From the NCBI GenBank assembly GCA_025351825.1, contig JANXVE010000093.1:1-33615 (forward strand): 33,615 bases of DNA, in the 5' to 3' direction. Shown here piece by piece: positions 24,358 through 32,213 of this stretch. The translations under genes and the position numbers were made by a program. Position 1 is the first letter of the stretch. Every line of letters begins with the position of its first letter. The stretch comes from Chamaesiphon sp. 341R_metabat_111. GTDB taxonomy: Bacteria; Cyanobacteriota; Cyanobacteriia; Cyanobacteriales; Chamaesiphonaceae. The notes under the pieces are model-generated. The model saw nothing but the letters and a program-made list of their open reading frames with translations, had not been told where the DNA came from and ran no database searches.

Positions 24358-24927
24358 TCAACTGAGAAATGCTGCGTAGTATTGTCGATAGTATAGGTAC
24401 CAAGTTGGTTCTATTTGCTTGAATCTCCACTCTTCTCTGATACTACGTTTTTCAAATAGTTCTGTATTGGCAAGTCGATCCAAAGAAACCTGCTCTAGCA
24501 AATCATTTTTAATCGGAGTCTCAGAAAAAACGTACCCCTTTTCTTCAATGAAAACATCTACACCAAGAGTTTCAACCTCATCAACCTTGAACAGAATTGG
24601 CGAACCTTGGAAAAAGTTAGAGTTACTAAGAGACTTTGCATATCCTTGCTCTACCCCTTGAACATTAGCTTCTTTCAATACTTTCAGGGCTATTTTACAA
24701 CTATTAAAGCTCTCGCCAGTATTCTCTTTGCTAGATCCTAATTCCGTCTCTTTGAGGGATTTACATTCCTTAATTATACTATTTATTACTGACTTATTTT
24801 TTTGAAAACTTTCTACTATTTTATCATCAGAGGTAAGTCCTGATAATTTAACAATGCCACATCCATCCATCAGCAGACACAATAATATAGTTAACGTTGA
24901 TTTTACGGAAATATTAAATATGCTCAC
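24358..24927 (-). CDS. Putative AT-rich lipoprotein, opposite strand within the liv locus
   Basis: Not recognised. The 189-residue product has a hydrophobic N-terminal segment (about residues 9-19) ending in LLMDGC, a possible lipobox with Cys23, although Asp at -2 is unusual. The rest is hydrophilic with Lys, Glu and Ser predominating, an EWRFKQ-like segment near the C-terminus and two more cysteines (C55, C77). The gene is visibly more AT-rich than its neighbours, has a GTG start (24927) and no ribosome-binding site. It lies between the permease and the ATPase genes on the opposite strand, flanked by repeats, so it looks acquired. Confidence 0.62.
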   Translation of the reverse strand: MSIFNISVKSTLTILLCLLMDGCGIVKLSGLTSDDKIVESFQKNKSVINSIIKECKSLKETELGSSKENTGESFNSCKIALKVLKEANVQGVEQGYAKSLSNSNFFQGSPILFKVDEVETLGVDVFIEEKGYVFSETPIKNDLLEQVSLDRLANTELFEKRSIREEWRFKQIEPTWYLYYRQYYAAFLS

Positions 24928-26244: not shown

Positions 26245-27474
26245 ATGATTGAAAATATTAATTTTCGGACAGGAATTAGCGCATCAATCCTACGGGCAGC
26301 TCAAGTAGCTTTAGCAGAAATCCCCCACAAATTTCATATAGTCAATCGTCAGCATCACCCTTCAAAACCTCAAGCTCCGACCCGAATCTTGGAGCGAGAT
26401 CGGGGTTTAGTTAGTGCAAAATTATTGGGTGTCGATCCCCAAACATGGGTTTCTGGTGCAGATCTGGAGTTCGATCCACGTCAATGGTTGCTCTTGGGAA
26501 ATCCACAGTTGGCGAACTTGGTGACAAAGACAATTGGCGATGACTGGATCGACCATTTAGATCGCCTTCAGCAGCTAGCACCGCTCGCGGAAGATCCGTT
26601 GCTCCAATCGCGGTGGCGGGCGGTTAAACAGATAAATAAGCAGGCTCTAGCTAGCTATTTGGAACGATCGCAGGGAGTCAAAATCAATGTCTCGTCGCTA
26701 TTCGATCTTCAGCTTCAACCGATTGTCGAACATCAGCGACAATTATTGAATATTTTGCATATTATTACGCTGTTTAATCAGATTAAGCAGCAGCCTGGGA
26801 TCAGTATTATGCCCCGCACGTTTATCTTTGGAGATTTGGGCGAAATTGAACCAAGTGCATCCGATCTAGATTGCCAATCGCAACCGAATACCAGTCGCGA
26901 GATTATTAGCTTAATTCAGTCGCTGGCACAAACTTTGGCGCAGGATCCCGATGTCAACGGGAAATTGCAGGTAGTCTATGTGCCGAACTCGGCGGGGTTG
27001 ACAAGCCAGATGTATGCGGCGGCGGATCTGACTCAAGAAATTGCAGCAGCAGCAGTTGAAGATGTCGATTTGAGTCGGGCGAAAGCGGCAGTTAATGGTG
27101 TATTGTCGATCGGTAGTTTGGGCAAAACTAATTATTGGTTGCAGCAAGCAGTGGGCGAGGAAAATTACTTCTGCTTTGGCTTGCCAATTCCAGAAATAAA
27201 TTTATTTAAGGAATATGGTTATGATCCTTATAACTATTACAAGCATTATCCAGAAATTCGGCAGGCGATCGATTGTTTATTAACTGGCTACTTTACACCA
27301 GAACATCCGACCCTGTGTCAATCTTTGCTCGATACACTCTTCGGTACCGACGAGCAGATGATCTTAGCTGATTATATTTTCTATATCGCTTGTCAAGCAC
27401 GAGTGAGTGCTACTTATCGACAACGATCGATGTGGACAAAGATGTCAATCTTGAACGTCGCTGGGGTAGGATAG
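26245..27474 (+). CDS. Degenerate C-terminal glycogen phosphorylase-like protein
   Basis: GT35 homologue containing only the C-terminal half. Residues 72-400 follow the glycogen phosphorylase order: DPRQWLLLGNPQLANLV, LFDLQLQPIVEHQRQLLNIL, MPRTFIFGD, AAADLTQEIAAAA, KAAVNGVLSIGSL, GEENYFCFG and a final WTKMSILNVAG. The family is about 840 residues; this has 409, and residues 1-70 are unrelated. The PLP-lysine position is kept (K280), but the phosphate-site stretch, RIHEYKR in true enzymes, is PIVEHQR, and the GTGNMKF motif is replaced. I expect no catalysis; a regulatory or binding role, or slow decay, are options. Frame and codon use look intact. ATG 26245 has no convincing ribosome-binding site. 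Confidence 0.8.
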   Translation: MIENINFRTGISASILRAAQVALAEIPHKFHIVNRQHHPSKPQAPTRILERDRGLVSAKLLGVDPQTWVSGADLEFDPRQWLLLGNPQLANLVTKTIGDDWIDHLDRLQQLAPLAEDPLLQSRWRAVKQINKQALASYLERSQGVKINVSSLFDLQLQPIVEHQRQLLNILHIITLFNQIKQQPGISIMPRTFIFGDLGEIEPSASDLDCQSQPNTSREIISLIQSLAQTLAQDPDVNGKLQVVYVPNSAGLTSQMYAAADLTQEIAAAAVEDVDLSRAKAAVNGVLSIGSLGKTNYWLQQAVGEENYFCFGLPIPEINLFKEYGYDPYNYYKHYPEIRQAIDCLLTGYFTPEHPTLCQSLLDTLFGTDEQMILADYIFYIACQARVSATYRQRSMWTKMSILNVAGVG

Positions 27475-27516: not shown

Positions 27517-29595
27517 ATGAAAAACATCACCTCGTCGAAGATATCGATCGGGTTTGTGGTTGCGCTGGTAGTAATAATCATTAATGTAGTTGTTGCCAAT
27601 CGAAGTATCCAGAAGATTGCGGCTAATAATCGATCGATCGATCGGATTCACGATAGCGTGATGAAGATTAACTCACCCCAGGAGCGGCTTCGCCAACGAT
27701 TGCAAGCTGAGTCGATTCAGAGCCTAGAAGACACCAAAATTGCGGTTGAATTTTCCGGCTTATTAGACTTAATATTGCTGGTATTTCTTTACGGGCTAGT
27801 AAACTGGGATATCACCAAAAAACACCAGGCTGAATCAACGCTGCTAAGTTCGGTGGCTGAATTTGAAGAACTATATCACAGTGCGCCCTGCGGTTATCAT
27901 TCTCTAGATCTAACTGGGAAAATCATCAGAATTAACCGCACCGAACTGAAGATGTTGGGCTATGAAGAAGCCGAAATTTTGGGTAAAAATATTGCAGATT
28001 CGATCGCACCTGCGAGTATTGAAGCTTTGCATAAAAGTTTGTCACTACTAAAGACCCGTGGCTGGATTCATGATGTTGAGTTTGAAATGATCCGCAAAGA
28101 TGGTGGCATTGTCCCAGTCAGTGCCACCGTGGTGGCAGTTCATAATGCTCAAGGTGATTATCTCGGTTCACGGGCAACAGTGATTGATATTAGCGATCGT
28201 ATAAAGTCGCGCAAACAAGCTCGGCTATCGGCGGAAATCTCCCAAAAGATTCGGCAATCGTTGCAGTTAGATGAAATTCTGCAAACGGCGGTAGAAGAAG
28301 TCCAGAAACTATTGGAGGTCGATCGAGTTCTGATTTTTCGATTTGAGCGGGATGGATCTGGTAAAGTAGTCCAGGAAAAAGTTTTACCTGGCTATCCGGT
28401 AGTGATGGGTAGCAAGATTATCGATCCTTGTTTCGATCTCAGTTATCACGATCGATATCAACAGGGTCGAGTCTATAATATTGCTGATGTTACTCAAGCT
28501 GGATTCGCACCTTGTTATGTCGAATTTTTGCAGCAGTTTGATGTTAAAGCTAGTGCGATCGTGCCAATCTATTTGCGCGATCGATTGTGGGGACTATCGA
28601 TCGTTCACCACTGCCAATCGCCACGGGAATGGCAACCAAAAGAGGTGGAAACTCTGTCCCAAATTTCCGCTCAAATTGGGATTGCTCTTGCCCAAGCGCA
28701 ACTACTCGAACAAGAACAACTTCAGCGGCAAGAACTGACCCGATCGAATGCTGAATTGGAGCAATTCGCCCATATTGCTTCTCACGATTTGCAAGAACCG
28801 CTGCGGATGGTGATTAGTTATTTGCAACTACTAGAACGTCGCTATCAGGGCAAACTCGATCGGGATGCGGATGAATTTATCGGCTATGCGATCGATGGTG
28901 CGGTGCGGATGCAAACTCTGATTCAGGCATTACTCAGCTATGCCCGCGTTAGCAGCCGCAAGCAGCCCTTTGGAGAGGTTGACTGCGAAATTGTATTCCA
29001 AGATGCAATCTCCAACCTCCACGTCGCGATTAGGGACAGTGGAGCGATCGTTTCTCACGATCCATTGCCAGCAGTTTGGGGGGATGCCACTCAATTGACT
29101 CAGGTATTTCAAAATTTGATTGGCAACGCAATCAAATTTCGGCGGGAATCACCACCCAAAATTCATGTTAGTGTCCAGCCTGTCCAGCTAGAAACTGACG
29201 ATCTCAAGCCCATGACATCAACCCAGCTCACCATCGATCTCAACTTGTCCTCGACAACAGAGACAATTGCCGCCCCAACTGCTTGGTGCTTTGCTGTTGC
29301 CGATGATGGGATCGGGATTGAGTCGCAATATCTGGAGCGAATTTTTGCCATCTTTCAACGGTTACATACGCGAGTCACGTACCCAGGTACAGGGATCGGA
29401 TTAGCCATCTGCAAAAAGATCGTCGAACGTCATGGTGGTACAATCTGGGTAGAATCTAACCCCGTAGTATCTGAATCACCATTGTCACAATCTTTATCTG
29501 TGAAACCGGAATCTTATGGGTCGGTATTCTACTTTACAATCCCCGCGATAAGTAGTACTTCCACTCAATATGCCAACAAACAGCCGCACAATTGA
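27517..29595 (+). CDS. Membrane PAS-GAF histidine kinase, candidate DXCF cyanobacteriochrome
   Basis: Sensor kinase of 692 residues. Two membrane segments (about 9-26 and 81-96) bound a short extracytoplasmic loop. A PAS domain (113-228) is followed by a GAF (235-395) with DPCF at 303-306, the Asp-x-Cys-Phe signature of DXCF cyanobacteriochromes, and APCY with Cys333 at the canonical chromophore position. The usual His after this Cys is Tyr. The kinase part has the phosphoacceptor H423 (HIASHDLQEPLR), N-box NLIGNAIKF, and G-boxes DDGIGI and GTGIGLAICKK. ATG 27517 is used; a TTG one codon earlier is possible. Its 3' end overlaps the next gene by 26 bases. Bilin binding is inferred. Confidence 0.88.
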   Translation: MKNITSSKISIGFVVALVVIIINVVVANRSIQKIAANNRSIDRIHDSVMKINSPQERLRQRLQAESIQSLEDTKIAVEFSGLLDLILLVFLYGLVNWDITKKHQAESTLLSSVAEFEELYHSAPCGYHSLDLTGKIIRINRTELKMLGYEEAEILGKNIADSIAPASIEALHKSLSLLKTRGWIHDVEFEMIRKDGGIVPVSATVVAVHNAQGDYLGSRATVIDISDRIKSRKQARLSAEISQKIRQSLQLDEILQTAVEEVQKLLEVDRVLIFRFERDGSGKVVQEKVLPGYPVVMGSKIIDPCFDLSYHDRYQQGRVYNIADVTQAGFAPCYVEFLQQFDVKASAIVPIYLRDRLWGLSIVHHCQSPREWQPKEVETLSQISAQIGIALAQAQLLEQEQLQRQELTRSNAELEQFAHIASHDLQEPLRMVISYLQLLERRYQGKLDRDADEFIGYAIDGAVRMQTLIQALLSYARVSSRKQPFGEVDCEIVFQDAISNLHVAIRDSGAIVSHDPLPAVWGDATQLTQVFQNLIGNAIKFRRESPPKIHVSVQPVQLETDDLKPMTSTQLTIDLNLSSTTETIAAPTAWCFAVADDGIGIESQYLERIFAIFQRLHTRVTYPGTGIGLAICKKIVERHGGTIWVESNPVVSESPLSQSLSVKPESYGSVFYFTIPAISSTSTQYANKQPHN

Positions 29596-30010
29596 AATTT
29601 TATTGGTCGAGGACAATCCTGGTGATGTCAATCTCACCCGAATTGCCCTGGCAGATCGAGAAATCAATGTTAACTTAAGTGTGGTAACTGATGGTGTCGA
29701 AGCAATGAATTTTCTCCATCGTCAGGGCGAATATCTTCATGCTATTCATCCCGATTTGATTTTGCTAGATTGGAATTTGCCCCGCAAGGATGGACGGGAA
29801 GTATTAATTGAGATTAAAGCCGATGAAAGACTTCAGCGCATCCCCATTGTTGTCCTCACCACTTCTGAAGCTGAAGAAGATATTCTCAAGGCATACAATC
29901 TTCACGCCAACTGCTATATTACCAAGCCCGTAGATTTTGATAAATTTGTCCAGATCGTTCAGTCGATCGAGGATTTTTGGTTTAATATCGTTCAATTACC
30001 ACCAGGGTAG
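29570..30010 (+). CDS. Rcp1-like single-domain response regulator
   Basis: Receiver of 146 residues in the Rcp1 group, the partners of phytochrome-type kinases in cyanobacteria. Present are the acidic pair E14/D15 (LLVEDNPGDVNL), phospho-acceptor D67 (LILLDWNLPRKDG), the switch Thr in VVLTTSEAEEDI and K119 (ITKPVDFDKF). The VEDNPGDVxLxxxAL and C-terminal FxxxVxSIEDFW motifs are typical of the Rcp1 subfamily. The gene overlaps the kinase gene by 26 bases, which implies coupled translation and strongly suggests that it is the cognate partner. The start is ATG 29570. Confidence 0.93.
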   Translation: MPTNSRTIEILLVEDNPGDVNLTRIALADREINVNLSVVTDGVEAMNFLHRQGEYLHAIHPDLILLDWNLPRKDGREVLIEIKADERLQRIPIVVLTTSEAEEDILKAYNLHANCYITKPVDFDKFVQIVQSIEDFWFNIVQLPPG

Positions 30011-30134: not shown

Positions 30135-31844
30135 ATGATTACTGTTCTGAACATTCTGCTTGTTGAAGACAATCCTGGTGATATTCGGCTATTACAGGAA
30201 ATTTTGCGCGAAGTAAAAACAACTCGATGTCAGATTACACCAGTAATGACCCTAGCCGCAGCGATCGAACAATTGTCGCTCACAACCCCTCATCCTTCCC
30301 ACACTCCCCACACCTCCCACACCCCCCACCCCCAAGCCCCCACGCTCCCACGCTACGCTCCCGCGCCCCCAAGCCCCCAAGCCCCCACGCCCACCCTCCC
30401 CCACTTCGACATCATCCTAGTCGATCTATCCCTACCAGATAGCCAGGGAATCGACTCTTTTCTAGCTTTGCGCGATCGATCTCAGAATATTCCGATTGTC
30501 GTGCTGACTGGCTCAGACGACCAGAATCTGGCGATTTTAGCGATGCAGCAGGGGGCACAAGATTACCTCATCAAAGGACAGGTCGATAGTAATTTATTGC
30601 TAAGATCGATTCGATATGCGATCGAGCGCGAACGTACAGAAACAGCTCTAAGACAAGCCAAAATCGAACTAGAACAGCGAGTAATCGAGCGCACTTGCGA
30701 TCTCCAACAAACACAAGATAGCTTACACGACGCGCTCCAGAAAGTGAATTTTCACTTTGAAAATTCACCGTTAGCAGCAATCGAATGGGATCGAGATTTT
30801 CGAGTAAGTAGATGGTCGGCAACCGCAGAACGAATTTTTGGCTGGTCATCATCGCAAATATTGGGAAAAAGACCAGATGACTGGAAATTTGTAGTCGAGG
30901 AAGATGCCGCACGAATCGCTCAAGTGATGAGTCGATTTATTACTGGTAGCGAGACTAGCAATGTCACGATCAATCGTAACTATTGTCAAGATGGAACGAT
31001 CGTCAATTGTGAGTGGTACAATTCGGTTTTGCTAGATGAAAATGGTCGAATGGAATCAGTTTTCTCATTAGCATTAGATGTGACTCATCGGCATCAAGTC
31101 GAAAAAATGAAGAATGAGTTTATTTCTATTGTTAGTCATGAATTGCGAACGCCACTAACGTCTATTTATGGTTCACTCAAGCTATTGGATAGTGGTTTAC
31201 TCATGCAAGAGCCAGAAAAGGAAAAACGACTGCTCACGATCGCCGTAGATAGTACCGATCGACTGATGCGGCTGGTAAATGATATTCTAGATATCGAACG
31301 GATCGAAAGTGGTACCGTGAAAATGGTCAAAGCTGTATGCGAGGTGTCTGAGTTGATGTCAAAAGTAGTCGATGAGATCGAACCATTAGCCGATAGTGCT
31401 GGAATTAAACTGAGTATCAGCAATTCGGGGGGAAATGTGTGGGTGGATATCGATCGGATGATTCAAACTTTTACCAATCTAATTGGCAATGCAATTAAGT
31501 TTTCACCCAGAGGCAGTACTATTTGGTTTACAGCTAGTAAACAAGCTGGTCAAATGTTATTTCAAGTTCGCGACAGGGGACGGGGAATTCCACCAGATAA
31601 ACTAGCAACTATTTTTGAAAGATTTCAGCAGGTAGATGCTTCGGATGCGCGAAGTGGTGAAGGAACAGGTTTGGGTTTAGCCATCTGTCGGAGCATTGTC
31701 GAGCAACATGGTGGACATCTCTGGGTCGAGAGTGTTCTGGGCGAAGGCAGCACATTTTCATGTATTTTAGCTCGTTCGCCAGCGAATAATGATAGTCAAC
31801 CAGCTAATTATCTGTGGAACTATTCCACCCAACAAAAAAATTAA
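30135..31844 (+). CDS. Receiver-PAS-histidine kinase with insertion in the receiver
   Basis: Signal-transduction protein of 569 residues: N-terminal receiver (1-165), coiled linker (165-200), PAS (about 203-320) and kinase (325-548). The receiver has E11/D12, D97 (FDIILVDLSLPDS) and K147 (YLIKG). The kinase has H335 (SIVSHELRTPL), N-box NLIGNAIKF, and GTGLGLAICRS. Residues about 50-89 are an out-of-place stretch (TPHPSHTPHT... PAPPSPQAPTP) inside the receiver, between the second helix and the beta strand carrying D97. The DNA there (about 30282-30401) looks like the C-rich intergenic repeats of this genome. The rest of the fold is intact. It lies 125 bases after the Rcp1-like gene. Confidence 0.9.
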   Translation: MITVLNILLVEDNPGDIRLLQEILREVKTTRCQITPVMTLAAAIEQLSLTTPHPSHTPHTSHTPHPQAPTLPRYAPAPPSPQAPTPTLPHFDIILVDLSLPDSQGIDSFLALRDRSQNIPIVVLTGSDDQNLAILAMQQGAQDYLIKGQVDSNLLLRSIRYAIERERTETALRQAKIELEQRVIERTCDLQQTQDSLHDALQKVNFHFENSPLAAIEWDRDFRVSRWSATAERIFGWSSSQILGKRPDDWKFVVEEDAARIAQVMSRFITGSETSNVTINRNYCQDGTIVNCEWYNSVLLDENGRMESVFSLALDVTHRHQVEKMKNEFISIVSHELRTPLTSIYGSLKLLDSGLLMQEPEKEKRLLTIAVDSTDRLMRLVNDILDIERIESGTVKMVKAVCEVSELMSKVVDEIEPLADSAGIKLSISNSGGNVWVDIDRMIQTFTNLIGNAIKFSPRGSTIWFTASKQAGQMLFQVRDRGRGIPPDKLATIFERFQQVDASDARSGEGTGLGLAICRSIVEQHGGHLWVESVLGEGSTFSCILARSPANNDSQPANYLWNYSTQQKN

Positions 31845-31874: not shown

Positions 31875-32213
31875 ATGAACTTTACCGAAATCACCGTAAC
31901 TGAATTAGCAACAAAACTAGCCGATCGAGACCGACAATATCAATTTGTCGATGTGCGCGAACAACGAGAATTAGAGCTTGCGGCTTTACCAAAATTTATT
32001 CATCTTCCCCTGAGCGAACATGCCGAGTGGTCGTTAGAAATTCATACAAAATTAGATAAAGATGCCGAAACATTTGTATTGTGTCATCATGGCATTCGAT
32101 CGGCTCAAATGTGTCAATGGCTAATCGCTCAAGGTTTCACTCAAGTTAGCAATGTGATTGGGGGGATTGATGCCTATAGCGATCTGGTCGATCGGAGTTT
32201 ACCAAAGTATTAG
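31875..32213 (+). CDS. Rhodanese-like single-domain protein
   Basis: Sulfurtransferase-type domain of 112 residues. The active-site loop is C70 in FVLCHHGIRSAQM (six-residue loop with Arg), preceded by FVDVREQREL and followed by NVIGGIDAYS, all classic rhodanese features. The CHHGxRS loop is that of the cyanobacterial thiosulfate-type small rhodaneses. Sulfur donor and acceptor are unknown. It lies 30 bases after the kinase gene and may be co-transcribed with it. The stop codon (TAG, 32211-32213) lies within the left arm of an inverted-repeat element, so the last codons may have been altered. Confidence 0.9.
   Translation: MNFTEITVTELATKLADRDRQYQFVDVREQRELELAALPKFIHLPLSEHAEWSLEIHTKLDKDAETFVLCHHGIRSAQMCQWLIAQGFTQVSNVIGGIDAYSDLVDRSLPKY

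Follow-up and report, generated by a model that had tools for sequence, protein, structure and literature searches.

A half-length GT35 phosphorylase homologue of Chamaesiphon, conserved, very probably dead as a phosphorylase and usually encoded beside a cyanobacteriochrome-type kinase

The window, a stretch of 33,615 nucleotides from Chamaesiphon sp. 341R_metabat_111 (genome G000 of our sample), carries a gene related to the C-terminal half of glycogen phosphorylase (GP), hereafter half-GT35, which is followed on the same strand by signalling genes. The features discussed below are:

26245..27474, plus strand: half-length GT35 pseudo-phosphorylase gene, 409 aa (open reading frame, Pfam and TIGR matches, seven complete orthologues, the window's included)
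26245..26472, plus strand: N-terminal extension, residues 1-76, variable (omega 0.43, pLDDT about 30-60)
26473..27471, plus strand: GT35 C-terminal (PLP) domain, residues 77-409 (PF00343 match, alignment, structure model)
26716..26739, plus strand: former phosphate-binding stretch, residues 158-165, QPIVEHQR replacing KRIHEYKR
27058..27087, plus strand: former PLP/glucose loop, residues 272-281, EDVDLSRAKA replacing EASGTGNMKF, with the K280 codon at 27082-27084
27517..29595, plus strand: membrane PAS-GAF histidine kinase with a CBCR-type GAF domain (DPCF and CY cysteines), the CHASE3 region missing in the window
29570..30010, plus strand: single-domain response regulator, 146 aa, syntenic in congeners
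30135..31844, plus strand: receiver-PAS-histidine kinase, third signalling gene of the block
31875..32213, plus strand: rhodanese-domain gene, lying directly 3' of half-GT35 in genome G004

As the first-pass annotation had described, the half-GT35 frame is uninterrupted from its ATG over 409 codons, with no internal stop, and encodes the C-terminal GT35 region alone. Its product is a significant member of the GT35 family, residues 78-409 matching positions 373-695 of the 713 of PF00343 (E-value 1.4e-83; 282 bits against a cut-off of 27). TIGR02093, which describes the full-length, two-domain enzyme, aligns over positions 464-786 of 804 and gives 271 bits, under its cut-off of 553, and the protein is thus no full-length phosphorylase by this model. 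The start is backed by the motif M-I/M-E-x-I/M-N, found at an ATG or GTG in all seven complete orthologues, and these first residues are the only conserved part of the extension; the nearest in-frame stop on the 5' side leaves space for just 32 extra residues. The earlier reading would have been challenged by an intact N-terminal half just upstream in other assemblies; tblastn searches with four N-terminal-half queries found none at any half-GT35 locus, congeners and window included. We likewise rejected a split enzyme whose N-terminal half is encoded elsewhere, since G000 has no PF00343 N-terminal half except in its TIGR02094 protein and the half-GT35 loci hold no remnant of one.

The same truncation is found in seven complete orthologues, the window's included, as the first-pass annotation had proposed to verify. 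All are 404-419 aa long and belong to Chamaesiphon, in named records to Chamaesiphon polymorphus CCALA 037 and Chamaesiphon MAGs, and the other six are 56-82% identical to the window protein. Among nine Chamaesiphon genomes, the gene is complete in seven, reduced by a contig edge to its 3' end in G007, and absent from G002. Across 291 genomes of the order, a half-GT35 model scored 728-806 bits in complete members and, among the matches listed, at most 345 bits elsewhere, in frames of about 650 aa or longer; in a class-level sample of 388 genomes, only the window's own genome passed an E-value of 1e-104. The half-length form was therefore not found outside Chamaesiphon among the order-level matches listed or at E <= 1e-104 in the class sample, limits within which a very divergent form could be missed. 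Some phosphorylase frames of the order measure ~650-680 aa (G020:C36, G236:C101, G267:C158, G271:C350) and may be N-truncated or lie at assembly edges.

An AlphaFold model, computed from an input alignment that combined half proteins with the C-terminal domains of phosphorylases, has a mean pLDDT of 78, with most of the core between 75 and 98 and values below 50 at residues 1-12, 22-74 and 200-213. Foldseek and VIA-align place it on glycogen phosphorylase (Z about 42, rmsd 1.7, 330 residues aligned), a match that is expected rather than independent because phosphorylase sequences were part of the alignment. With the GT35 phosphorylases of Crocosphaera subtropica (9wvu) and rabbit muscle, half-GT35 shares the C-terminal fold over 330 residues at 37-40% identity. 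It differs from them in lacking the N-terminal domain, which in characterised phosphorylases is the main binding place of the alpha-glucan substrate (PMC11046441), in its variable 76-residue N-terminal extension, in a longer variable loop around residues 200-213, and in the replacement of K568/R569/H571/Y573/K574 and of the SGTGNM loop.

These replacements, numbered here after rabbit muscle GP, bear out the two losses that had been noticed at first pass, those of the RIHEYKR phosphate-binding residues and of the GTGNMK context. In the window protein, K568, R569, H571, Y573 and K574 correspond to Q158, P159, V161, H163 and Q164, and the loop A673-S-G-T-G-N-M679 reads D-V-D-L-S-R-A. The sampled half orthologues have Q at K568, P at R569, Q or H at K574 and H or Q at Y573, four positions invariant in 22 of 22 sampled phosphorylases, and GTGNM is absent from every sampled half. 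Including H571 and the loop, the catalytic positions are invariant or nearly so across the 22 phosphorylases, and each of them is changed in the six half proteins of the alignment except the PLP lysine. That lysine (K680 in rabbit GP) aligns with K280, so its retention, also claimed at first, stands for the window and for six of seven complete orthologues (both figures including the window protein) and fails as a family-wide rule, G005 having a glutamate. The equivalents of W491, E672, N684 and G685 are retained. Because residues invariant or nearly invariant in 22 phosphorylases are replaced in the halves, their sequences indicate that phosphorolysis has very likely been lost.

Could the domain have acquired a different activity, perhaps still through K280 and PLP? 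Six of the seven orthologues keep the lysine, and conservation at the rebuilt positions of the old active site is not below that of the remaining core. Yet G005 has its glutamate, the PLP and phosphate ligands are gone, and so is the second domain that would close the cleft; we consider a new enzyme improbable. We also rejected a special freezing of the former active site: mean pairwise identity at its positions is 0.79 versus 0.70 for the core, and 88% of random samples gave the same or a lower value.

Truncation, loss of catalytic residues and a long stem in the tree (1.3 changes per site) might also be expected if a former glycogen phosphorylase had simply decayed, and a near-neutral substitution ratio or frameshifts in sister strains had been named as signs of this. 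Neither was seen. A codon model gave an omega of 0.200 over 396 codons (0.159 in the core, 0.425 in the extension), and freeing omega raised the log likelihood from -6381.6 at omega = 1 to -6112.5 (difference 269, 2 delta lnL 538). The genes of seven genomes contain no frameshift or stop although pairwise dS exceeds 1 for distant pairs, and 155 of 333 core residues are invariant. The relaxed or absent selection of a pseudogene is therefore not what we observe, and decay, which omega, the unbroken frames and the conserved core refute, is scarcely credible. The uninterrupted orthologues and the omega value instead argue for a maintained pseudoenzyme, in line with the first-pass view of a maintained gene, and we are highly confident that half-GT35 is both maintained and dead as a phosphorylase. 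Its tempo resembles that of the neighbouring kinase (omega 0.191; response regulator, 0.110), unlike that of a metabolic enzyme such as the TIGR02094-type alpha-glucan phosphorylase (0.045), which in G000 is an 853-aa protein (C23) of the same superfamily and a different subfamily.

A phosphorylase of this TIGR02094 type is present in all nine Chamaesiphon genomes (partial in one); PF00343 searches detected a classical full-length GlgP in G006 and none in the other eight. In the phylogenetic tree, the halves form a single clade and the GlgP of G006 clusters with the sister genus, apart from them, which speaks against simple decay and led us to reject direct descent by decay from the genus's own GlgP. 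The history reads as one old truncation with remodelling, followed by constraint; the stem is long, so the tree does not pin down the parent.

The kinase gene starts (ATG at 27517) 42 bases past the half-GT35 stop codon, the spacing first reported. The best solved-structure matches of its GAF domain include the cyanobacteriochromes RcaE (7ckv) and AnPixJ (3w2z), and of the chromophore cysteine motifs of this class, CY is present in every one of the seven kinases, DPCF in six of them; as far as sequence can tell, the name photoreceptor given to it at first pass is therefore a fair reading. In G000, G001 and G008, the kinase has lost a sensor region, CHASE3, and measures about 693-700 aa; in G003, G005, G006 and G007 it retains this region and measures 787-799 aa, with a Pfam CHASE3 match in G005 and G006 (loci L058, L059, L061-L064).

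The order half-GT35, kinase, regulator is found in G000, G001, G003, G005, G006, G007 and G008, with the second kinase next wherever the contig extends. The expectation of a constant neighbour is thus satisfied in all six other kinase-bearing congeners and not in G004, from which the block is gone. In G005, the second kinase appears as two overlapping frames of 153 and 548 aa (L063:4382-6453), possibly a frameshift or a gene fission. The block is present in two deep branches, and its flanks differ between them: upstream of half-GT35 lies a LivG-type ABC gene in G000, G001 and G008, a BMC-domain gene in G003, a YCII gene in G006 and a MenC-like gene in G005. In the window, a 189-aa frame (24358-24927, minus strand) without Pfam or NCBIfam match adjoins the ABC transporter genes. 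The gap between half-GT35 and kinase is 39-59 bp in four genomes and 142-247 bp in three; between the two genes of the window, promoter-like sites are as frequent as expected by chance, and the plus strand shows no terminator-like site. Cotranscription, suggested at first pass, is plausible. Kinase orthologues occur in seven genomes, each of which also has half-GT35; outside half-GT35 genomes, a search at E 1e-120 returned none but one 42%-identical protein, in G027.

On this gene order, half-GT35 may work with the kinase, to which we give a little less than an even chance. Against this partnership, the gaps vary (39-247 bp), the shared absence of both genes from G002, which retains the rhodanese region, rests on an assembly that is 92% complete, and G004 has half-GT35 without kinase or regulator. 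In this last genome, listed as 100% complete, neither orthologue was found, and about 30 bp separate the intact half-GT35 from the next gene, the rhodanese gene, whose place in the window is behind the second kinase. This junction marks a loss of the kinase block, the simplest reading because the other deep branch carries the block. A serine-recombinase gene lies between half-GT35 and the LivG-type ABC gene of G004 (L060:1800-3080). The G004 gene shows pairwise dN/dS values of about 0.14-0.18. Its product thus has some use where that kinase is missing, for a while at any rate, and the kinase is not an obligate partner.

The pseudoenzyme could therefore have a role of its own. It might, for example, bind a sugar phosphate or an enzyme of glycogen metabolism, such as the remaining TIGR02094 phosphorylase, and the kinase would then be no more than a frequent genomic neighbour. 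Constraint in G004 and the phosphorylase complement of the genus described above are consistent with such independence. On the other side, the block stays together in two deep branches whose flanking genes differ, and every genome in which the kinase orthologue turned up has half-GT35 too. We consider this possible rather than probable, and an independent binding role nearly as likely as that of a two-component accessory.

Since a dead half-enzyme is under purifying selection, usually beside light-sensing genes, half-GT35 is probably now a non-enzymatic regulatory or binding protein. Taken as a whole, the best explanation, on which we are about evenly divided, is a pseudoenzyme with a non-catalytic binding or regulatory function, probably as accessory to a light-sensing two-component system. 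It is the PLP-binding C-terminal Rossmann domain of a GT35 enzyme, separated from the N-terminal domain in which the glucan site mostly lies. The ligands for phosphate, PLP and glucose have been replaced, and purifying selection has since held the rebuilt sequence throughout Chamaesiphon. The protein may now act by binding, and as an accessory it might bind the kinase or regulator, or signal to the system that it holds a sugar phosphate or a partner enzyme. More speculatively, and in our opinion unlikely, a domain of a storage-polymer enzyme would in this one genus have been turned into a subunit devoted to signalling within a light-sensing two-component system, so that a pseudo-phosphorylase links light perception to carbon-reserve status.

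Our searches of a literature library, on glycogen phosphorylase in Chamaesiphon or in truncated form and on inactive paralogues with two-component systems, returned no paper on this protein, none on a phosphorylase-derived gene beside a cyanobacteriochrome kinase, and no description of pseudoenzymes derived from GT-B phosphorylases. If confirmed, half-GT35 would be a natural single-domain GT35 protein stripped of catalysis and reused, with a candidate partner in light signalling, in a genus without classical full-length GlgP in eight of nine sampled genomes; it offers a simple, testable system for the passage of a metabolic enzyme domain to a regulator. Its neighbour shares with cyanobacteriochrome kinases (RcaE, AnPixJ-type GAF) the CBCR-type GAF domain with DPCF and CY. 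That a signalling phosphocarrier can dock onto a phosphorylase has a precedent in Escherichia coli, where HPr regulates GlgP (PMC11046441), an active enzyme, which half-GT35 very probably is not.
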